Shown here: piece by piece, positions 22,408-32,558 of the stretch
Layout: each line of letters starts with the position of its first letter
Numbering within the stretch: the first letter of the stretch is position 1
Source of the DNA: a candidate division WOR-3 bacterium
GTDB lineage: Bacteria; Hydrothermota; Hydrothermia; UBA1063
DNA length: 64,000 nt
Direction: 5' to 3'
Assembly: GCA_039803545.1 (NCBI GenBank)
Contig: JBDRYS010000001.1
Span: 189,866 to 253,865, forward strand
The notes under the pieces: model-generated
What the model saw: only the letters and a program-made list of their open reading frames with translations
Told to the model about the DNA's origin: nothing
Database searches by the model: none
Program-made: the position numbers and the translations under genes

Positions 22408-22488
22408 CAAAACATGAAACACAAATCTAAAATTTTAAAAATTGGCAGCGCAAATGAAAAATCATATTGATCACAATTTGGTTCTATT

Positions 22489-22871
22489 TGACCTATTTTC
22501 TGCTGTAATTCTGATGCCTATTCGAGCCTCCTTTTCTTGTTGTAAGCCCTGTTAAGCTCCATTTGTAATTTGATTATCGTTTGTGTTGATTTTACTATCT
22601 TTATGTTATCCTTCAAGCTCATTAACTTCCTTTTTACTTCTTCACTTACCCCTTCTGCTCTTATCTTAAAACCCTGTTTAGAGGCGTGTCTTTCTAATAT
22701 CTCTTTGCTCTTCTACCTTTTTCTGTTTTCCACAACCATTTTCCTTTGCTAAGACCACACTGTATTGCTTCTCGCTTACAGAATAGAAAATGCAGTATGA
22801 TCGCCGTTTTATTGTTTTGATATTTTTGATGAAACAGCCCTATTTTGAGCCGATTAATTTGAGAAACGCCG
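22489..22871. repeat. Direct repeat copy A flanking the restriction island (left)
   Basis: A 383-bp segment that recurs in the same orientation at 32181-32558. By eye about nine of ten aligned bases agree, with long identical runs (for example around 22551-22582 and 22813-22850). Copy A has 5 extra bases near 22666. On the minus strand it carries a decayed reading frame (22518-22712). It lies directly left of hsdM. It could be an old mobile-element remnant or a recombination site bounding the island. Confidence 0.85.
22518..22712 (-). pseudogene. Decayed reading frame inside repeat copy A
   Basis: An open frame of 64 codons without an ATG near its start. It reads for example SKQGFKIRAEGVSEEVKRK, then IKIVKSTQTIIKLQMELNR, and ends in RRLE-stop. 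Repeat copy B encodes AEGLSEEVKRR and IKIVKLAQTIIKLQMELDR in the corresponding frame, so most differences are conservative. Copy B, however, lacks 5 bp upstream, and copy A has TAG where copy B has a Trp codon. Both look like broken tails of one ancestral gene that I cannot name. Confidence 0.5.
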
Positions 22872-22932: not shown

Positions 22933-24459
22933 ATGAAAGAAAAGGATTTAAATTTTGAAGACAAACTTTGGAAAGCAGCGGATAAATTAAGAAAAAAAAT
23001 AGAAGTTCATGAGTATAAATATGTTGTTTTAGGGCTTATATTTTTGAGGTATATTTCATTTGCATTTGAGGAAAAAAAGAAGGAAATTCAAAGAGAAATA
23101 AAAAAATTTCCACAGAAAATAAGAGCTAAAGTTTCTGAAGATAGAGATATTTATCAATCTAATGGAATACTTTATATCCCAGAAAACGCAGGATGGGATT
23201 ATATAAAGAAAAACGCTAACCAACCTAATATCGGGGAAATAATTGATAAAGCAATTGAAACATTGGAAAATGAATACCCAAAACAATTGAAAGATGTTAT
23301 CCCAAGAATTTATTCAAAGGTAAACCTTGACCAGTTTGACCTTGCTTATCTTATAAACCTCTTCTCTGAAATTGAATTTGACGAAGAACATTTAGGAAAA
23401 GATATTTTCGGAAGAATTTATGAGTATTTCCTCGGTAAATTTACCGAAGCGGAAGGTAAAAAGGGAGGTGAGTTCTATACCCCACGCTCATTGACAAAAC
23501 TTATCGTTGAAATTTTAGATGTCAAAGAAGGGAAAATATTTGACCCTGCCTGTGGCTCCGGAGGTTTTTTCGTTTCAGCACTTGAAAAATTACAAAAAGA
23601 AAACATTGAAAAAGAAAGGTTATCTATCTACGGCCAAGAATCTAAAGAGTTCGTGTGGAAGGTCTGCAAAATGAACCTCGCAATCAGAAATACCGAAGGA
23701 GATATAAGATGGGGCGACTCCTACCACGATGATAAATTCTTTGACTTAAGAGCTGACTATGTGGTCTCTAACCCACCATTTAACGATAGCGAATGGGGAA
23801 GAGATAGAGTGAAACCAAACGACCCGAGGTTTAAATACGGTCTCCCTCCCGAAAACAACGCAAATTATGTTTGGATCCAGCATTATATCTATCATCTTGC
23901 CCCAAACGGCAAGGCTGGCTTTGTTATGGGAAATGGAGCCTTGTCCGTAGGAGGAGTAGAAGGTGAAATCAGAAGAAAGATCATTCAGGATGATTTAATA
24001 TACGGAATAATAGCTATACCACCCAAGATGTTTTATACCGTTCCTTTACCTGCTTCTTTATGGTTTATTAGAAAAACAAAGCCTGAACATATGAAGGGTA
24101 AAATCTTGTTTATTTATGCTAAAAAGATGTATAAGCCTATTTCAAGAAAGCAAAACATCTTTACCGAAGAGCACATAGCTAAAATTGTAGAAAAGTTTAG
24201 GATGTTTGAACGGAGCGAGCCAGAGGAAAAGATAAATGAAATAGGCTTTGCAAAGGTTGCCTCGATTGAAGAGGTTGCTAAAAATGGTTATGTTTTAACT
24301 CCGGGAAGGTATGTAGGAATAAAGCTTGATGAAGAGGATATATCTTTTGAAGAGAAAATGAGCCAATATTCAAAAGAGCTTTCAGAATTGCTAAGAAAAG
24401 AGGCAGAACTAACTGAAAAAATAAGAGAGGTGTTTAAAAACTTAGGATGGGAGGTATAG
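22933..24459 (+). CDS. hsdM: Type I restriction-modification DNA methyltransferase HsdM
   Basis: An N6-adenine methyltransferase of 508 residues. It has the HsdM N-terminal helical domain (1-165), the SAM-binding motif DPACGSGGF (204-212) and the catalytic NPPF (280-283). With HsdS it methylates the recognition site; with HsdR it forms the restriction complex. The SD GGGGAGGCGG precedes the ATG. In a typical locus hsdS would follow directly, but three cargo genes come first. No frameshift or missing motif is seen. Confidence 0.97.
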   Translation: MKEKDLNFEDKLWKAADKLRKKIEVHEYKYVVLGLIFLRYISFAFEEKKKEIQREIKKFPQKIRAKVSEDRDIYQSNGILYIPENAGWDYIKKNANQPNIGEIIDKAIETLENEYPKQLKDVIPRIYSKVNLDQFDLAYLINLFSEIEFDEEHLGKDIFGRIYEYFLGKFTEAEGKKGGEFYTPRSLTKLIVEILDVKEGKIFDPACGSGGFFVSALEKLQKENIEKERLSIYGQESKEFVWKVCKMNLAIRNTEGDIRWGDSYHDDKFFDLRADYVVSNPPFNDSEWGRDRVKPNDPRFKYGLPPENNANYVWIQHYIYHLAPNGKAGFVMGNGALSVGGVEGEIRRKIIQDDLIYGIIAIPPKMFYTVPLPASLWFIRKTKPEHMKGKILFIYAKKMYKPISRKQNIFTEEHIAKIVEKFRMFERSEPEEKINEIGFAKVASIEEVAKNGYVLTPGRYVGIKLDEEDISFEEKMSQYSKELSELLRKEAELTEKIREVFKNLGWEV

Positions 24460-24468
24460 GGGGAATTT

Positions 24469-25560
24469 ATGGTTAAAGAAATAAATTTAAAACCAGAAAT
24501 TATAAAGGGATTAATAGATAATTCAGGATTTAATGAAGAAGAAGTTGCGAAAAAATCAAAAATTTCTTTAAAATCCTTAAAAGAAGGTAAACTTACTATC
24601 CCTCAATTAAAAAAACTTGCTAATGTTTTAAAAAGACCAATTGCCGCCTTTTTTTCAGATGAGATTCCATCCTTGCCAAAAACTCCAGATTATAGATTAA
24701 ACAGAAATAAAAGAATTAATCCGGAGGTCTTTTTGGCTCAAAGAAAATTAACTTATTTATTAAAAAAATTGAAAGATTTAGGAATTGAAAAATCGATTAT
24801 ACCAACCTTTAAATCAAATATATCCCCTTTTCAGTTAGCTAAGGAATTTAGAAAATATTTAGGAATTGAACTGATAAAAAATCAAAAACCAAACATTATA
24901 TTGAACAAATATAAAGAAATTATTGAGGATAAGATGAAATTTTTAATTATAGAATATCCATTAAAACCTGTAAGATCAGAAGTATCAGATGATGTTCGTG
25001 CTTTTAGTATTTATTATTCTGATTTAGGTGGTATAGTTTTAAATGAAACAGATCATCCATCTGTTAAGTTATTTTCTCTTTTTCATGAAGTATGTCATCT
25101 TTTAAAAAGAAATTCAGGAATATGCTCGTTAGAATATGAGGTAGAAAATGAGTATGAAGAAGAAAGTTTCTGTAATAAATTTTCTGCTGAATTTCTCGTT
25201 CCCTCAGATGATATAAAAAAAGAAATACAAAATTATACATTATGTGAAGAAACTACTTTAGAAAGTATTGGTGCTTTATCTAAAATTTATGGTGTAAGCA
25301 AACAAGTAGTCCTTCTTCGCCTTTTATATCTTGGTTTTTTAACAAGTGAACAATATTTTTTATTAAGGATGCAATTGGAAGAAAAAGAAAAAAAGCAATT
25401 TGGTCGTAGAAACTGGGAAGAGGTGTTTAAAAACCGCACAGGTAATTTGACAATAAGAGAAGTTAAAAAAGCTCTTCAACAAAATAAGATATCCTTTTAT
25501 GAAGCACTCAATATCCTTGATGTAAAAACTAAATACGCAGAAAGGTTTTTATATGAGTAA
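24469..25560 (+). CDS. Xre-type HTH + ImmA/IrrE-family metallopeptidase (COG2856)
   Basis: A 363-residue two-domain regulator. Residues about 5-60 form a helix-turn-helix (NEEEVAKKSKISLKSLKEG, LTIPQLKKLANVLKRPI). The middle carries an ImmA/IrrE-type zinc peptidase motif, LFHEVCHLLKR (HExxH), with a distal SAEFLVP helix. Proteins of this kind act as antitoxins or protease-controlled repressors in toxin-antitoxin and mobile-element loci. It starts 9 nt after hsdM and overlaps the PIN-like gene by 8 nt, so the two probably form a module. Its AT-rich, A-rich codon use is stronger than in hsdM. Confidence 0.88.
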   Translation: MVKEINLKPEIIKGLIDNSGFNEEEVAKKSKISLKSLKEGKLTIPQLKKLANVLKRPIAAFFSDEIPSLPKTPDYRLNRNKRINPEVFLAQRKLTYLLKKLKDLGIEKSIIPTFKSNISPFQLAKEFRKYLGIELIKNQKPNIILNKYKEIIEDKMKFLIIEYPLKPVRSEVSDDVRAFSIYYSDLGGIVLNETDHPSVKLFSLFHEVCHLLKRNSGICSLEYEVENEYEEESFCNKFSAEFLVPSDDIKKEIQNYTLCEETTLESIGALSKIYGVSKQVVLLRLLYLGFLTSEQYFLLRMQLEEKEKKQFGRRNWEEVFKNRTGNLTIREVKKALQQNKISFYEALNILDVKTKYAERFLYE

Positions 25561-26074
25561 AACAAAACAGCCAAGTTTATTTAATTTTAAAATTTATTGT
25601 ATTGATACAAGTTCTATTATCAACCTTTTTCGTCATTCTGGATTACCTTATCCTCCTTATCATGCCGATATTTTTGAGGGATTATGGACAAAACTTGACC
25701 AAATTATCAAAAATGGAAATCTTATATCCCATATCACGGTCTTGAAAGAAATTTCTGAAAGAGATGATGACGCTAAAAGATGGTGTGAAAAATATAAGAG
25801 GATTTTTAGAGATATAGATTATTGTCAAATAAAAATGATAAATGAGATTCAAAAAAAGTATACAAAAGATGGCTGGGAAAGAGAGATAAGTAGAAAAGGA
25901 CAAGAATGGGCTGACCCTTGGATTATTGCTTTAGCCATTTGTGAAGGCGCAATAATAGTTTCAGATGAAAAGAATTCTCCAGATAGAATACCTTATATTG
26001 CAAATCATATTGGAATTAACACTTTAAATCTAATGGATTTTTTTAAAGACATAGGTTTAAAATTAAAAATTTAG
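25553..26074 (+). CDS. DUF4411 PIN-like protein (predicted RNase toxin)
   Basis: A 173-residue protein of the DUF4411 (PIN-like) family. It has acidic residues in the expected places: IYCIDTSSIINLF near the N-terminus, VLKEISERDDD in the middle, and EWADPWIIALAI with IIVSDEKN near the end. PIN-like folds cut RNA with two Mg ions. The pairing of an Xre-ImmA/IrrE gene with a DUF4411 gene recurs as a predicted toxin-antitoxin unit, and here the genes overlap. It might protect the host against loss of the restriction locus or act in abortive infection (inference). Confidence 0.85.
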   Translation: MSKTKQPSLFNFKIYCIDTSSIINLFRHSGLPYPPYHADIFEGLWTKLDQIIKNGNLISHITVLKEISERDDDAKRWCEKYKRIFRDIDYCQIKMINEIQKKYTKDGWEREISRKGQEWADPWIIALAICEGAIIVSDEKNSPDRIPYIANHIGINTLNLMDFFKDIGLKLKI

Positions 26075-26085
26075 AGGTTTAAATT

Positions 26086-26145
26086 ATGCTAAAGTTTCGC
26101 TGGGAGACGGCGTTTAAGGAAACGGAGATTGGGGGGATGTTATGA
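26086..26145 (+). pseudogene. Truncated duplicate of the hsdS 5' end
   Basis: A 19-codon frame, MLKFRWETAFKETEIGGML-stop, preceded by a weak SD. It matches the first 16 codons of hsdS at 27617 (MKFRWETEFKETEIGE) nearly residue for residue; 26089-26135 aligns with 27620-27666 with only a few mismatches. It then runs into the OLD-family gene, whose ATG lies inside its last codons. It is read as the stub left when the OLD gene was inserted at the hsdS start. Confidence 0.8.
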
Positions 26146-27620
26146 TTAAGAAAATAAAGATACAAAACTTTCGTTCAATTAAAAATTTAGAAATACAACT
26201 TGGCAAAATTAATGCTTTTATAGGTCCAAACAATGCTGGAAAATCAAATATTATGAAGGCATTAGATTTAATTCTTGGTGAAACATATCCAACCATAAAA
26301 TCATTTGATGATAAGGATTTTTATAAATATAACAAAAAGAATCCTATTCTAATTCAAGTATCTTTTGACCCGCCATTAAATCGCGATAGCAGAATTCATG
26401 GATTTAAATTAACTTATGATGGTAATAATTGTGAATATGTAGCTATTGATCAGAATTCTGAAAAGGTAATGAGGGTTTCAAATCAAATGAAGGAAGAAGT
26501 TGCTTTAATGTATTTATCCCTCGATCGGCAAGCTTCTCAACAGGTTAGGCCCTCACAATGGACACTATATGGAAAAGTGTTAAAATATTTAAATGCCCAA
26601 ATTGAGCACCCAAAAAAAGAGGAATTCAAGAAATTGCTTGAAAATAGCTATAGAGATAATCTTTATTCATCAGTTGTTGAAGATTTTGAAAAAATTCTAA
26701 GGTCTCATGTTCAAAATCAAACTGGGTTAGATATTTTTCTTAAACTCTCTCTTATGGATCCCATGGAGGTTTTTAAAAATCTGCGTCCATATTTCAAAGA
26801 GGGGGACATAGAATATGACGCAGAAGATATGGGAGCAGGCACCCAAAGCGCCTTAGCTATTGCAATTGCACGGGTTTATGCAGACATAGTCCGGAAGCCT
26901 GTAATTATTGCTATTGAAGAACCAGAGCTTTACCTTCATCCTCATGGTTGCCGTCATTTTTATAAATTATTAAAGAACTTAGCAAATGATGGCTTACAAG
27001 TTATATATACAACCCATGAAAGGTCTTTTATAGATATTAGCAATTTTGAAAGCATTCATATTGTTAAAAAAGAAGGAGACGAAACTAAAGTATATTCTGG
27101 TATATCTTTTTCTATATCTTTTTCAGTGCCCTCTCAACTTGAACAAGTTAAGCTTGCTTCAAAATTTAATGAATATATCAATGAAGTATTTTTCGCTGAC
27201 AAAGTCATTTTAGTAGAAGGATTTTCTGATAAAATAGCTTGCCAATTAGCATTAGAAAAATTAGGAATAGATATAGATTTAAAAAATATTTCAATTATTG
27301 AATGCGGAAGCAAAACTGCAATAGAACCCATTGCTCAGATTCTAAAGCATTTTAATATTAAAACTTATGCTTTATTAGATGCTGACGCAGAAACCGAAAT
27401 TTTAAAATTGCAAGAGTTATTAGGAGAAGATAATGTTTTTGTTCAAAAGCCAGATTTAGAAGGAATGTTAGGTCGAGATAAGATAGGGTTAAACGCTAAT
27501 GAGAAGCTTAATAAAGAAAAATCTTTAAGACTTTTACCTTTTTATTTCCAGAATATTCAGGAAAATGAACTCCCTCAAATTTATTTAGATCTTAAAAACA
27601 AGATAATAGGTAATATATGA
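26142..27620 (+). CDS. OLD-family ATP-dependent nuclease (AAA + TOPRIM)
   Basis: A 492-residue ABC/SMC-type ATPase fused to a TOPRIM nuclease. Seen: Walker A GPNNAGKSN (28-36), a signature-like DMGAGTQSALAIA (about 229-241), Walker B VIIAIEEPELYLHP (about 254-267) and the switch TTHERSF. The TOPRIM motifs are VILVEGFSDK (about 355) and LLDADAE (about 415). OLD proteins are phage-defence or DNA-damage nucleases. No UvrD-like helicase partner is present, so this is not a Gabija pair. The gene overlaps hsdS by 4 nt (ATGA) and begins inside the hsdS stub, so it rides in the restriction operon. Confidence 0.92.
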   Translation: MIKKIKIQNFRSIKNLEIQLGKINAFIGPNNAGKSNIMKALDLILGETYPTIKSFDDKDFYKYNKKNPILIQVSFDPPLNRDSRIHGFKLTYDGNNCEYVAIDQNSEKVMRVSNQMKEEVALMYLSLDRQASQQVRPSQWTLYGKVLKYLNAQIEHPKKEEFKKLLENSYRDNLYSSVVEDFEKILRSHVQNQTGLDIFLKLSLMDPMEVFKNLRPYFKEGDIEYDAEDMGAGTQSALAIAIARVYADIVRKPVIIAIEEPELYLHPHGCRHFYKLLKNLANDGLQVIYTTHERSFIDISNFESIHIVKKEGDETKVYSGISFSISFSVPSQLEQVKLASKFNEYINEVFFADKVILVEGFSDKIACQLALEKLGIDIDLKNISIIECGSKTAIEPIAQILKHFNIKTYALLDADAETEILKLQELLGEDNVFVQKPDLEGMLGRDKIGLNANEKLNKEKSLRLLPFYFQNIQENELPQIYLDLKNKIIGNI

Positions 27621-28942
27621 AATTCCGCTGGGAGACTGAGTTTAAAGAAACGGAGATTGGGGAGATACCGAGGGATTGGGAAATTAAAAAAGCAACTGAA
27701 TATGTTTATTTTATCAGAGGTATAGAACCAGGAAGCAAATCATACAAAAATTTTGGGAAGTATAGGTTTATAAGAGTAGGTAATTTGAGCGGGGAAAGAG
27801 AAGACGAAGTCTTTATAGATATTGAAGTCAATAATGAAAAAATTGCGAACAAAAACGATATTTTAATTTCATTTGATGGAACAGTTGGAATTGTAAGAAA
27901 AGGGCTAGAAGGCATTTTTTCTTCAGGAATAAGAAAAATTAAAATAAAACAAGAAAAAATGCAAGAATTGAATTATGAATTTTTGTACTGGTTCTTTAAA
28001 TCAACTTTAAAGTATCAAATTTTTGGGTTTTCTGACGAAAAGACAACACTGGCACATGCAAGTGATAGTATTCCGTATTTAAAGATATTTCTTCCTCCTT
28101 TATCCGAACAATCACGCATTGCTACTGTCCTATCTTATTTTGATGATTTAATAGAAGTTAAGAAAAGGCAGAATGAGATTTTGGAAAAGACGGCGATAGC
28201 AATTTTCAAAAGCTGGTTTATTGATTTTGAGCCGTTTAGGGCTTGTCCCGAGCAAGAGCGAGGGAACTACGAGTTTGTGTATAATGAAGAATTGGGAAAA
28301 GAAATACCGAAGGGGTGGGAGGTTAAGAAAATAGGAGAAGTAGCTGATTTAAAAAATGGGCTATCATATAAAGGTAGCGAAAAGTTTAACGAACAAACAC
28401 ATAGAAGTTATATTTTTATAACTTTGAACAATATAATTGAAGGCGGTGGGTTTAAAACTGAATATACTTGGATCAAAAGCGAAAGAATAAAGAACCAGCA
28501 CCTATTAAAAGAAGGCGATATAATATTTGCAAATACTGAGCAGACAAAAACGGGGAGACTTTTAGGATCACCGGCTTTTGTTATTTTCCCAACACAATAT
28601 TCAAAATCAGTAGGGGTGTTTTCACATCATTTAACTAAAATTAACCCAAAAGACTTTAGAATGAAATACTTTTTTTATTTACTTTTTAGATTGTATCAGC
28701 AAGAATTTGCTCAATCATTTCACACCGGAACAGGCGTATGGGGGTTCGACCTTCAAAACTTTAAAACAAATTACTATATCCTTCTCCCCCCTCCCCACAT
28801 CCTCCAATCCTTCCACTCACTCGTTGAGCCCCTATTTCAAAAAATCATCCTCAACCAAAAGCAAATAATGACCATAAGGAGAATTAGAGATACACTTCTT
28901 CCTTTGCTCGTTTTTGGTAAATTAAGGGTGGAGGAGTTGTAA
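27617..28942 (+). CDS. hsdS: Type I restriction specificity subunit HsdS
   Basis: The 441-residue DNA-recognition subunit with two target-recognition domains (about 15-170 and 225-400). The central conserved helix is LPPLSEQSRIATVLSYFDDLIEVKKR..., and a second conserved region ends the protein (LLPPPHILQSFHSLVEPLFQ). Each target domain starts with the typical 'G(E/K)EIP(R/K)(D/G)WEIKK' motif (GEIPRDWEIKK; GKEIPKGWEVKK). It determines the bipartite target of HsdM and HsdR. The start is fixed by the OLD overlap. Full-length and apparently intact. Confidence 0.95.
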   Translation: MKFRWETEFKETEIGEIPRDWEIKKATEYVYFIRGIEPGSKSYKNFGKYRFIRVGNLSGEREDEVFIDIEVNNEKIANKNDILISFDGTVGIVRKGLEGIFSSGIRKIKIKQEKMQELNYEFLYWFFKSTLKYQIFGFSDEKTTLAHASDSIPYLKIFLPPLSEQSRIATVLSYFDDLIEVKKRQNEILEKTAIAIFKSWFIDFEPFRACPEQERGNYEFVYNEELGKEIPKGWEVKKIGEVADLKNGLSYKGSEKFNEQTHRSYIFITLNNIIEGGGFKTEYTWIKSERIKNQHLLKEGDIIFANTEQTKTGRLLGSPAFVIFPTQYSKSVGVFSHHLTKINPKDFRMKYFFYLLFRLYQQEFAQSFHTGTGVWGFDLQNFKTNYYILLPPPHILQSFHSLVEPLFQKIILNQKQIMTIRRIRDTLLPLLVFGKLRVEEL

Positions 28943-28943
28943 A

Positions 28944-31900
28944 ATGGCATACTTGACCGAAAATGAACTCGTAGAACAACCTGCAATAAATTGGTTTAAA
29001 GAAATTGGCTATTCATACATCCACGGCTCGGAACTTATACCCGATAACAAAGAAAGAGAATCCTATAGACATTGCGTCCTGAAAAGAAGATTTATTAGAG
29101 CGATCAAAAGGATAAACCCCCACCTTACCGATGAACTGACCGAACAGGTCTATAAAAAAGTTATTGAATTTGACCACCCCGACTTCATCATGAAAAGCAA
29201 AATTTTTTATGATCTTCTGACCAATGGGGTAAAACTTACCTTTAAAGAGGGAAGGGAAGAAAAGACGAAAATCATAAAATTATTGGACTTTGAAAATTTA
29301 GAAAACAACGAATTCCTCATAGCAAATCAGTTTAAAGTTGAGTATCAATTTGAAAAAGACATGTACAGAAAACCCGACCTCGTCGTGTTTATAAATGGCA
29401 TCCCAATAGCTGTCTTTGAACTCAAAAGCTTTAACGCTAACGAAACCGCAAGAGATGCCTTTTTAGACCATAAAACGAAAATGAAAGATATACCCCAACT
29501 CTATGTTTATTCTCAAATCATCGTCGCCTCAGATGGCTACGAGACAAAATATGGCTCACCAACAAGTGACTGGGAGAGATTTTTTGTATGGGAGGGAATT
29601 TCAACCGATGACGACCTTGAAGTTAAAGAAATCACAAGCGGTTATTATAGATATCTTCACAACGGAAAAGAATTAACTTCACTTGAGGTCTTAATTAAAG
29701 GACTTTTTGATAAAAAACGCCTCCTGGAATTTATAAACGACTTCGTCTTTTATGAGAAAACAGGCGAAAGTTACGAGAAGAAAATATCCGCATATCACCA
29801 ATTTTATACCGTTAAAAAAGCAGTTGAAAGAACTATCAAATGCGTTTTAGAAGGTAAAACACCAGAAAATAGAAGGATAGGCGTTGTATGGCACACACAG
29901 GGCGCAGGAAAATCTTTGACGATGCTGTTCTACGCAAAAAAGATATTAAAAATAAAAGAACTTGAAAATCCCCTCTTGATCTTTGTAACCGATAGAAATA
30001 ATCTTGATGAACAACTTTACAAGCTGTTCTCCCAATTTCCTATAGCAAAGCAAGCGGAAGATATAGAAGATTTACAAGAGACGATAAAAAAGACAACGGG
30101 AGGAATTATATTTACAACTATTCAAAAATTTGGAAAGGTAAAATCAGAAGAATACCCACTTCTCACCGAGAGAAAAAATGTAATTGTGATCGCCGACGAA
30201 GCCCATAGAAGCCAGTATAGAGAACTCGCAAGGAATTTGAGAAAAGCGATCCCAAACGCCTCATTTATGGGCTTTACCGCAACACCAATTGAACTTCAAG
30301 ATAGAGATACATACCTTGTCTTCGGCGAACCGATAAGCGTCTACTCAATGGATAAGGCACTCCGTCATAAAATAATAGTCCCAATATACTACGAAGCACG
30401 ACTCGTTGAACTACATCTGACAAATGAATTCATAGACGATGAATTTGAGGAAATTTCGGAATCACTTGAACCCGATTTGAAAGAGGAATTGAAAAGAAAA
30501 TACGCAAAACTTGAGAGATTAATCCTTAACCCCGAAAGAATTCAGAAAATAGCAAATGATATCGTTGAACACTTCAATAAAAGAACCCAAGAACTTGAAG
30601 GTAAAGGGATGATTGTCGTCCTGTCAAGAAAGGTTGCTGTTGAACTATATAATGCCATCAAAAAAATCCCAAACGCCCCATCAATTGAAGTGATTATATC
30701 AGGAAATAAACAAAGAGACCCGGTGGAGTTCCATCCACACATAAGAAATAAAACAGAAATGGAAGAAGTCCTCAACAATTTCAAAAACCCGGAAAAAGAC
30801 CCCAAAATGGTCATAGTTGTTGATATGCTCCTGACCGGCTTTGATGTCCCATGCCTCCATACGATGTATTTTGATAAACCGATGAAAAACCATAACCTCA
30901 TCCAAGCAATAGCAAGAGTAAATAGGGTATTTAAAGATAAACCCTCCGGACTTATCGTTGATTATATAGGAATTGCCGACGATTTGAGAAAATCACTAAG
31001 CCAATATACTATTGAAAGTATAAAAAGCGTCCTCACTGATATAAACGAAGTTATAAATATCTTGAGGGAAAAATACGATATCGTCTCTTCTATGTTTTAT
31101 GGACTGGATTATAAAAAATGGGTTTCCCTAAAACCAGAGGAACTCGTCCAACTTACTGTTTCTGCATACAATCATATGATTCAAGAGGGATTAGAGGAAA
31201 AGTTTATTAAAAATTACCTCCTCCTGAAGAAAATTTATGCCCTCGCAAGCCCACACCCCGAAACCATAAAGATTAAAGATGACATAAAATTTTTTGAGAT
31301 GATTAAAAAAATGATAATCAGATACACTACAACTAAAAAGGTGGAAATATCAAGGGAACTTGAATATGAAATAAACCAACTGATTTCAAAAAGTATTTCA
31401 GCCGAAGAACCGGTTGATGTTTTCTCCTTAATTCAAAAGGAAAAACCAGATTTATCTGTCCTTGACGAAAATTTCCTCGCACAGTTCAAAGAAATGCGTC
31501 AAAAAAATTACGCAGTTGACCTCCTCATTAAATTGTTAAATGATGAAATTAAAATTAAAATGAGAAAAAATCCCTTCAGATATAAATCCCTCTACGAGAT
31601 GCTGAAAAATTTAATTGAAAGGTATAATGTAAAATTGATCAATACCGTGGATGTGATAGATGAATTGATTGAAATCGCCAAAGAAGTGAAGGAAAAAATG
31701 GATGAGGGTAAGAAATTGAATTTAACCGAGGAAGAACTCGCTTTTTATGATATGCTGTTGGGAAAGGATATTTTTGAAAATGAGGATGAAATCAAATTTA
31801 TTGCTAAAGAGGTAATAAAGAAGTTGGGCAATTTTATTAAAGTTGTTGATTGGAACAAAAAAGAAAGTTTGCGTGCAAAAATTCGATGGGCTATAAAGGA

Positions 31901-32000
31901 GATATTGATAAATGTTGTTGATGAAAGGGTAGAATATGAAAAGATTGAAAGTGTTGCAAAAGAGATTTATGAGCATGTAGAGGCATTATATGCTACCTAA
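28944..32000 (+). CDS. hsdR: Type I restriction endonuclease/translocase HsdR
   Basis: The 1018-residue motor-nuclease subunit. The nuclease motif KPDLVVF...FELKS (about 143-162) is of the PD-(D/E)xK type. The SF2 translocase has Walker A TQGAGKS (about 318-324), the DEAH box (ADEAH, about 415), GFTATP, and motif VI with QAIARVNRV. The C-terminal ~350 residues are helical and bind HsdM/HsdS. It begins 1 nt after hsdS. All catalytic motifs are intact, so the system looks functional. Repeat copy B follows 180 nt after the stop. Confidence 0.96.
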   Translation: MAYLTENELVEQPAINWFKEIGYSYIHGSELIPDNKERESYRHCVLKRRFIRAIKRINPHLTDELTEQVYKKVIEFDHPDFIMKSKIFYDLLTNGVKLTFKEGREEKTKIIKLLDFENLENNEFLIANQFKVEYQFEKDMYRKPDLVVFINGIPIAVFELKSFNANETARDAFLDHKTKMKDIPQLYVYSQIIVASDGYETKYGSPTSDWERFFVWEGISTDDDLEVKEITSGYYRYLHNGKELTSLEVLIKGLFDKKRLLEFINDFVFYEKTGESYEKKISAYHQFYTVKKAVERTIKCVLEGKTPENRRIGVVWHTQGAGKSLTMLFYAKKILKIKELENPLLIFVTDRNNLDEQLYKLFSQFPIAKQAEDIEDLQETIKKTTGGIIFTTIQKFGKVKSEEYPLLTERKNVIVIADEAHRSQYRELARNLRKAIPNASFMGFTATPIELQDRDTYLVFGEPISVYSMDKALRHKIIVPIYYEARLVELHLTNEFIDDEFEEISESLEPDLKEELKRKYAKLERLILNPERIQKIANDIVEHFNKRTQELEGKGMIVVLSRKVAVELYNAIKKIPNAPSIEVIISGNKQRDPVEFHPHIRNKTEMEEVLNNFKNPEKDPKMVIVVDMLLTGFDVPCLHTMYFDKPMKNHNLIQAIARVNRVFKDKPSGLIVDYIGIADDLRKSLSQYTIESIKSVLTDINEVINILREKYDIVSSMFYGLDYKKWVSLKPEELVQLTVSAYNHMIQEGLEEKFIKNYLLLKKIYALASPHPETIKIKDDIKFFEMIKKMIIRYTTTKKVEISRELEYEINQLISKSISAEEPVDVFSLIQKEKPDLSVLDENFLAQFKEMRQKNYAVDLLIKLLNDEIKIKMRKNPFRYKSLYEMLKNLIERYNVKLINTVDVIDELIEIAKEVKEKMDEGKKLNLTEEELAFYDMLLGKDIFENEDEIKFIAKEVIKKLGNFIKVVDWNKKESLRAKIRWAIKEILINVVDERVEYEKIESVAKEIYEHVEALYAT

Positions 32001-32180
32001 AATTAAATGGAAAATATTATAGGAATGAGAAATAAATTAGTCTCCGATATTTTGGAATTGATTGTTTAGTTTTGTGGAAAACAATAAAAGAAAAATTCAG
32101 GAACTTTAATTGTATAATTTAAAAATGAGTGGATGAAAGAGAAAAATTAAGGGACGTACTTCCTCAAAATTAGACCTACT

Positions 32181-32558
32181 TGACCTATTTTCTATTGTAG
32201 TTCTGATGCCCATTCGGGCCCACTTTTTTTGTTGTAAGCTCTGTCAAGCTCCATTTGTAATTTGATTATCGTTTGTGCTAATTTCACTATCTTTATGTTA
32301 TTCCTCAAACTCACAAACCTCCTTTTTACTTCTTCACTTAAACCTTCTGCTCTTAAAACCCTGTTTAGAGGCGCGTTTATCTAACATCTCTTTGCTCTTT
32401 TACCTTTTTCTGTTTTCCACAACCACTTTCATTTGCTGAGACCACACTGTATTGCTCCTCGCTTACAGAATAGAAAATGCAGCATGGTCGCCTTTTATTG
32501 TTTTGATATTTTTGATGAAACAGCCCTATTTTGAGCAGATTAATTTTGAGGAACGCCG
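32181..32558. repeat. Direct repeat copy B flanking the restriction island (right)
   Basis: A 378-bp segment in the same orientation as copy A at 22489-22871. It is 5 bp shorter near the centre and carries scattered substitutions. The minus strand retains a frame ending at 32192 (AEGLSEEVKRR ... LQMELDRAYNKK ... EWASELQ-stop) that matches copy A and extends past copy A's early stop. The repeat ends 5 bp before the -35 box of the next gene, so the right boundary of the island coincides with a resident promoter. Confidence 0.85.

Follow-up and report, generated by a model that had tools for sequence, protein, structure and literature searches.

Truncated hsd gene ends between stacked cargo modules in type I restriction-modification operons

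The 64,000-nucleotide stretch of DNA analysed here (the window) contains a type I restriction-modification operon in which the start of hsdS is present twice, once in the intact gene and once as a 19-codon stub that separates two unrelated cargo modules stacked between hsdM and hsdS. The evidence supports the stub as a genuine hsdS 5′ end that is tied to the loading of cargo. It is probably the truncated start of a former hsdS, a scar of the event that joined, out of register, two type I operons with cargo. This reading draws on the anatomy of the operon, on the stub being nearer to a different hsdS allele than to that of its own operon, a weak result that depends on few sites, and on the recurrence of such pieces at facing hsd ends in other loci; the window stub alone is too short to prove operon joining. 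Extra defence genes in type I operons are already known, and the question addressed here is how these genes enter without destroying a multi-subunit enzyme. Truncated hsd ends, present in roughly an eighth of the cargo gaps of two surveys, form a readable record of stacking events and make the loading route testable with respect to the junctions used, its frequency and the removal of modules.

The operon and its second hsdS start

The operon and its flanking repeats comprise the following features.

22475–22860, plus strand: left copy of a ~390-bp interspersed repeat that flanks the whole type I island
22933–24459, plus strand: hsdM, N6 adenine methyltransferase subunit, 508 amino acids (Pfam N6_Mtase, 5.8e-107, and HsdM_N)
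24469–25560, plus strand: cargo module A, gene 1, ImmA/IrrE (M78) protease domain (Pfam Peptidase_M78, 1.5e-11; PADLOC RmrA, 3e-14)
25553–26074, plus strand: cargo module A, gene 2, DUF4411 protein (Pfam DUF4411, 7.4e-28)
26086–26145, plus strand: hsdS 5′ stub, 19 codons, with its own ribosome-binding site (GAGG) and a TGA end that overlaps the OLD start
26092–26138, plus strand: left copy of the 47-nt repeat, 87% identical to the right copy
26142–27620, plus strand: cargo module B, OLD-family protein, AAA ATPase and TOPRIM, 492 amino acids (Pfam AAA_15, 4.7e-37, and OLD-like_TOPRIM, 4.9e-19; PADLOC Old, 5.9e-59)
27617–28942, plus strand: intact hsdS, 441 amino acids (Pfam Methylase_S, 7.5e-26, two stretches)
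27620–27666, plus strand: right copy of the 47-nt repeat, the start of the intact hsdS
28944–32000, plus strand: hsdR, 1018 amino acids (Pfam HSDR_N, SWI2_SNF2 and T1RH-like_C)
32167–32546, plus strand: right copy of the ~390-bp repeat, in direct orientation

Open frames and Pfam domains place hsdM, hsdS and hsdR intact in one operon, which identifies it as a type I restriction-modification system. Since each hsd gene is kept as one complete copy, the enzyme should still work, and both the cargo modules and the restriction enzyme are presumably active. The first gene of module A resembles RosmerTA antitoxins, and a homologue of its product (46%) is found at the same hsdM-hsdS junction in locus L101, beside a homologue of the DUF4411 protein (41%). 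We take this DUF4411 protein to be PIN-like and presumably a toxin. The product of module B belongs to the OLD family, as both its AAA ATPase and its OLD-type TOPRIM domain (AAA_15, OLD-like_TOPRIM) score above the cut-off; homologues at about 52–56% lie between hsdS and hsdM in L004/L093. An Rfam search of the island returned no match.

The stub frame reads MLKFRWETAFKETEIGGML followed by a stop, and the hsdS start at 27617 reads MKFRWETEFKETEIGEIPRDW. An earlier note on this DNA had pointed out that the hsdS 5′ end occurs twice, and the comparison bears this out: 26092–26138 and 27620–27666 agree at 41 of 47 positions (87.2%), with a Smith-Waterman score of 64 compared to a maximum of 26 in 100 shuffles. 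The core of the repeat, GAAACGGAGATTGGGG, occurs in the window only at these two sites, with 0.03 occurrences expected. Homology begins at stub codon 3, which corresponds to hsdS codon 2, the stub having one additional Leu codon. Because the HsdS start is conserved across the HsdM family the stub is easily recognised, and two of its changes replace glutamates (E to A, E to G) that are kept in nearly all HsdS starts of relatives.

The OLD start codon (26142) sits within the ATGA that closes the stub, and at the other end 4 nt (27617–27620) are common to the OLD stop and the hsdS ATG, both as previously described. Such 4-nt overlaps are usual for OLD cargo, as in L091 and L093, and are therefore no sign of a special insertion. 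The two repeat copies do flank the OLD gene; what had been overlooked in presenting OLD as the framed cargo is the ImmA-DUF4411 module (24469–26074), which lies upstream of the stub, so that the stub separates one module from the other. With a ribosome-binding site still in place and its stop overlapping the OLD start, the stub may couple translation of OLD to the upstream genes.

The ~390-bp repeat that flanks the island has 11-bp inverted ends (CCTCAAAATTA / TAATTTTGAGG), is MITE-like and is matched at 23 places in the genome. In the sister species (G002) the two genes that flank the island are adjacent, with neither repeat nor operon. The gain of the island and the origin of the hsdS stub are separate questions. 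A fragment of this interspersed repeat is also seen ~150 nt upstream of L091, a second type I operon in the same genome.

Relatives of the HsdM protein at 67–89% identity come from thermophiles of several phyla and from one archaeon; the one in L099 is 88% identical. The junction of hsdM and hsdS is a hotspot for cargo in this family. As read by eye, the junction holds nucleotidyltransferase-HEPN pairs in L059, L060, L062, L063, L068 and L071, a Schlafen-like gene in L061, and a membrane protein with a TIR-like gene in L099. L101 has the same ImmA-DUF4411 pair plus others. The earlier note had proposed a comparison with relatives lacking the OLD gene; L065, L066 and L069 have neither cargo nor stub at this junction. 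A Methanocaldococcus jannaschii plasmid (L287, NC_001732) encodes an HsdM 64% identical to that of the window, and its type I operon has a 112-aa gene between hsdM and hsdS.

The hsdS gene nearest to the stub is that of L099, which matches it at 44/47 positions (93.6%), compared to 41/47 (87.2%) for its own hsdS. At the informative sites, those that distinguish the two intact genes and at which the stub agrees with either, the count is 3:0 for L099; at a fourth site all three differ. The preference for L099 is thus a weak one, resting on three sites in 47 nt that are too short for phylogeny. The first 12 nt of the stub, ATGCTAAAGTTT, are identical to the hsdS start of the cargo-free L065, whereas the window’s own hsdS has an ATGA start that overlaps the cargo. 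Being nearer to the L099 gene than to its own, the stub has the look of a remnant: the start, now decaying, of another hsdS allele that was broken. The proposal that it is a copy of the present hsdS, made on insertion of OLD, is therefore not supported by the comparison, and the accompanying statement that hsdS was not broken is probably wrong: most likely the resident hsdS was broken and replaced, not copied.

Truncated hsd ends in the cargo gaps of other loci

The search for hsd fragments covered all gaps of 150 nt or more that separate neighbouring hsd genes, each gap being compared with the hsd genes of its own locus. The first survey covered 211 loci, mostly IMG/VR contigs, which gave 97 gaps once near-identical ones had been merged. 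Truncated hsd ends were present in 12 of the 97: in the window, L063, L068, L078 (twice), L079, L080 (twice), L127, L134 and, less certainly, L188 and L203. L078–L080 appear to be one lineage; L188 and L203 appear to be another, and as their hsdR starts are decayed they are counted as probable only. In the second survey, of 60 loci from a different genome set, relics were found in 7 of 57 gaps (L303, L307, L310, L311, L312 twice, L325). The earlier note had suggested a search for hsdS-start duplications around cargo in other type I loci; similar duplications of hsd ends do occur there.

In both, each relic is either a 5′ part of the gene that follows the gap or a 3′ part of the one that precedes it. 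At the protein level, with the surveys pooled, facing ends matched in 21/293 cases, compared to 4/592 for control segments (middle pieces and opposite ends; p = 1.5e-7), and reversed gaps gave 0 matches in either survey. Relics also go together with stacked cargo. In the first survey all 12 relic gaps held at least two cargo ORFs, as did 39/79 of the others (p = 0.0009; p = 0.015 after related loci were collapsed and doubtful ones dropped), and in the second the association is only a trend (p = 0.10). The relics are facing ends of hsd genes and lie between two cargo modules, as expected for scars of operon joining, with the exception of L068, which has cargo upstream only.

Mismatches between relic and intact gene fall at third codon positions in 67/125 cases (p = 2e-6), as would follow if the copies were both still genes during much of their divergence; part of this bias could stem from purifying selection on the intact copy alone. 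Among 13 relic stretches tested, about eight are closer to another locus than to their own intact gene. No relic was found in 16 gaps on finished plasmids. The L307 relic lies within a 4.24-Mb single contig, which makes assembly error unlikely there.

Several apparent relics were dismissed, namely internal or opposite-strand repeats (L079, L315, L357), a frameshifted hsdM (L068, L100), a frameshifted hsdS (L300), an inverted hsdS (L136) and N-terminal extensions of hsdR (L133, L164, L325). In the hsdS-hsdR gap of L136, hsdS is followed by parts of hsdS in inverted orientation, an arrangement that is probably phase-variable. In the hsdM-hsdS gaps of L310, L312 and L325, hsdM tails (ending in NLKELGYG and the stop) stand at the borders of successive cargo modules, and the DNA of the recurring tail provides the following gene with its ATG and contains a sequence of Shine-Dalgarno type.

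Three loci (L063, L079, L312) contain composite relics, in the order hsdS, cargo, hsdR 5′ piece, hsdS 3′ piece, cargo, hsdR. The pieces of L312 make up a single frame, in which MKTLFTESDVESAALAWLQ, continuing to VVLAQRLRDAL, is joined to LPKLISGKLRVKDAERFLKERGL and a stop, and in L079 they are likewise fused in frame, at the same R(D/N)AL point. Such a composite is the expected product if one operon, broken shortly after its hsdR start, contributed the left side and a second, broken shortly ahead of its hsdS end, contributed the right. From the gene order, local target duplication would not simply give hsdR-hsdS composites, whereas the joining of two operons could. The hsdS piece of L063 is 81.6% identical to the hsdS of L071 over 141 nt, compared to 72% over 98 nt for its own hsdS. 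There is no general excess of common short words between hsdS 3′ and hsdR 5′ ends. In the hsdS-hsdR gaps of L079 and L078 the hsdR 5′ stub bears a short inserted repeat (DTLTRPSASLSQWERERGRGGKAWE in translation), which is also present, inverted, in the hsdM of L079.

Joining of operons and its alternatives

We propose that the locus arose by out-of-register fusion of two operons, each with its own, different cargo between hsdM and hsdS. The left partner, an operon or an allele, would have given hsdM, the ImmA-DUF4411 pair and the first ~16 codons of its hsdS, and the right partner, another such operon or allele, would have given OLD, the complete present hsdS and whatever followed. The expected left parent would thus be hsdM-ImmA-DUF4411-hsdS, with an hsdS beginning ATGCTAAAG, and the right parent hsdM-OLD-hsdS. 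We infer that the joining occurred by illegitimate or short-homology recombination between the two operons, and the order of events likewise. Survival would be limited to products in which hsdM, hsdS and hsdR each remain complete in one copy, with both cargo modules retained and truncated hsd ends between them, and the stub would now serve only as a translated spacer that couples the upstream module to OLD. A variant within the same idea would be the collapse of the first hsdS in an hsdS-OLD-hsdS operon.

Each half of the window arrangement is known elsewhere without a stub, with ImmA-DUF4411 at the junction in L101 and OLD in L091. The latter operon (G000:C1:946000-965000; hsdM at 957687-959210, minus strand) belongs to another subfamily, and its OLD-family gene, placed between hsdM and hsdS, overlaps each neighbour through an ATGA. 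A direct parent of the same subfamily, either hsdM-ImmA-DUF4411-hsdS or hsdM-OLD-hsdS, was not found, the halves occurring only in these more distant loci. Nothing recognisable of the donor’s upstream gene is left between stub and OLD in the window. A search for the HsdS-start pattern in 147 genomes of the phylum returned no second close pair between genes; tandem matches in G143 were set aside as both lie within one hsdS. Close OLD homologues were absent from viral_contigs, none was found in the phylum of L058 at 1e-50, and all those on plasmids were below 60% identity.

One could instead suppose a former hsdS1-OLD-hsdS2 operon in which an internal deletion cut hsdS1 down to its first ~16 codons and its stop. 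The closest OLD homologue indeed follows hsdS with an ATGA overlap in L093, where OLD lies between hsdS and hsdM, and the sequences upstream of OLD are similar (GGGGGGAATTATGAT in L093, GGGGGGATGTTATGAT in the window), although this likeness may be a mere Shine-Dalgarno match. The 3′ ends of hsdS in the family read GAGGAGATR, near to the stub end. However, no family locus among the relatives examined has two complete hsdS genes around cargo, and the hsdM 3′ relics elsewhere would remain unexplained, which makes such a collapse unlikely.

Quite unlikely, too, is an insertion of OLD at the present hsdS start that duplicated a ~47-bp target, the stub being the local copy. The two copies frame OLD exactly, no hsdS start apart from that of L099 comes closer to the stub than the window’s own, and single 5′ or 3′ relics elsewhere (L127, L134) are compatible with such an event. 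A local target duplication should, however, leave the stub nearest to the intact copy of its own locus, and the L099 gene is nearer, a weak test with so short a sequence. About eight of the 13 relic stretches are likewise closer to another locus, the composite hsdR-hsdS relics need two operons, and in L091 OLD entered the same junction without any duplication.

A functional leader peptide or translational-coupling frame under selection appears very unlikely. The ribosome-binding site, the stop that overlaps the OLD start and the presence of a similar short frame before hsdS in L068 would be in keeping with it. This second hsdS 5′ stub (L068:12200-12272; MNFRRGREIKKTEIGEIIIITKEK followed by a stop) lies directly before hsdS and is of almost the same length; its homology stops at the same hsdS position as that of the window stub. 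However, such a frame is absent from the cargo-free L065, L066 and L069 and, L068 excepted, from the other cargo-bearing HsdM-family relatives examined. The peptides of the two stubs differ strongly, and that of the window has lost near-universal HsdS residues. The case that the earlier note had named as refuting, a short frame without cargo behind it, therefore occurs once, in L068, but with cargo upstream there, and no cargo-free relative has the frame. L068 counts against joining as well, as its stub has cargo on the upstream side only. Chance similarity or an assembly artefact is next to negligible: most loci are metagenomic and the window genome is in 4 contigs, but the repeat score is far above shuffles, most relic copies have diverged by 5–28%, unlike misassembly, one relic lies within a single 4.24-Mb contig, and reversed gaps are without matches.

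The joining of operons bears on the general loading route that had been suggested for defence genes. The link between hsd-end duplications and cargo holds in two surveys, but the resident hsdS was likely replaced rather than copied. More tentatively, the hsd-end repeats between modules might serve as reusable recombination handles and ready-made translation starts. Type I operons would then possibly behave as arrays of cassettes in which defence genes can be piled up, swapped or dropped, a complete copy each of hsdM, hsdS and hsdR always staying in place. The recurrence of hsdM tails after successive modules in L325 and L310 bears on this idea. If it were true, the OLD gene of the window would be a removable cassette between 47-bp repeats.

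Comparison with known systems

Embedded defence genes have been described in type I operons, as with PrrC in a type IC operon (EcoprrI with prrC; passages in PMC3874165, PMC12707154) and RloB (rlo genes, Campylobacter type I loci; a passage in PMC10440598 citing Miller 2005), and HEPN genes have been linked to restriction systems (PMC3710099). As far as these passages go, the EcoprrI and rlo loci resemble the window in that further defence genes are housed within an intact hsdM-hsdS-hsdR operon. The passages found treat the embedded genes and their function and do not mention truncated hsd ends, and the cargo of the window differs (ImmA-DUF4411, OLD). In the open-access literature, we found no earlier description of truncated hsd ends between stacked cargo.

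The OLD protein resembles class 1 OLD and GajA in being a single protein with an AAA ATPase and an OLD-like TOPRIM domain, and its best PADLOC model is Old. It differs in being shorter (492 aa), in having no adjoining helicase partner and in being embedded between hsd genes. It does not fit a Gabija (GajA-GajB) system, as its neighbours are the stub and hsdS, with no UvrD-like helicase GajB adjoining. Module A recalls RosmerTA (RmrA/RmrT), in that an ImmA-domain protein matched by PADLOC RmrA models is paired with a small variable partner, and differs in that this partner is a DUF4411 protein, a presumed toxin; RosmerTA is described in a passage of PMC10440598.

Recombination of hsdS inside type I loci is also found in phase-variable systems such as the pneumococcal cod/tvr loci (PMC6265443, PMC4190663). 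In the passages on these loci, the recombining units are hsdS target-recognition pieces that undergo inversion or excision. Compared to what is described there, scars of the kind seen in the window consist of gene ends only, lie in direct orientation beside unrelated cargo, and involve the ends of hsdM and hsdR as well.
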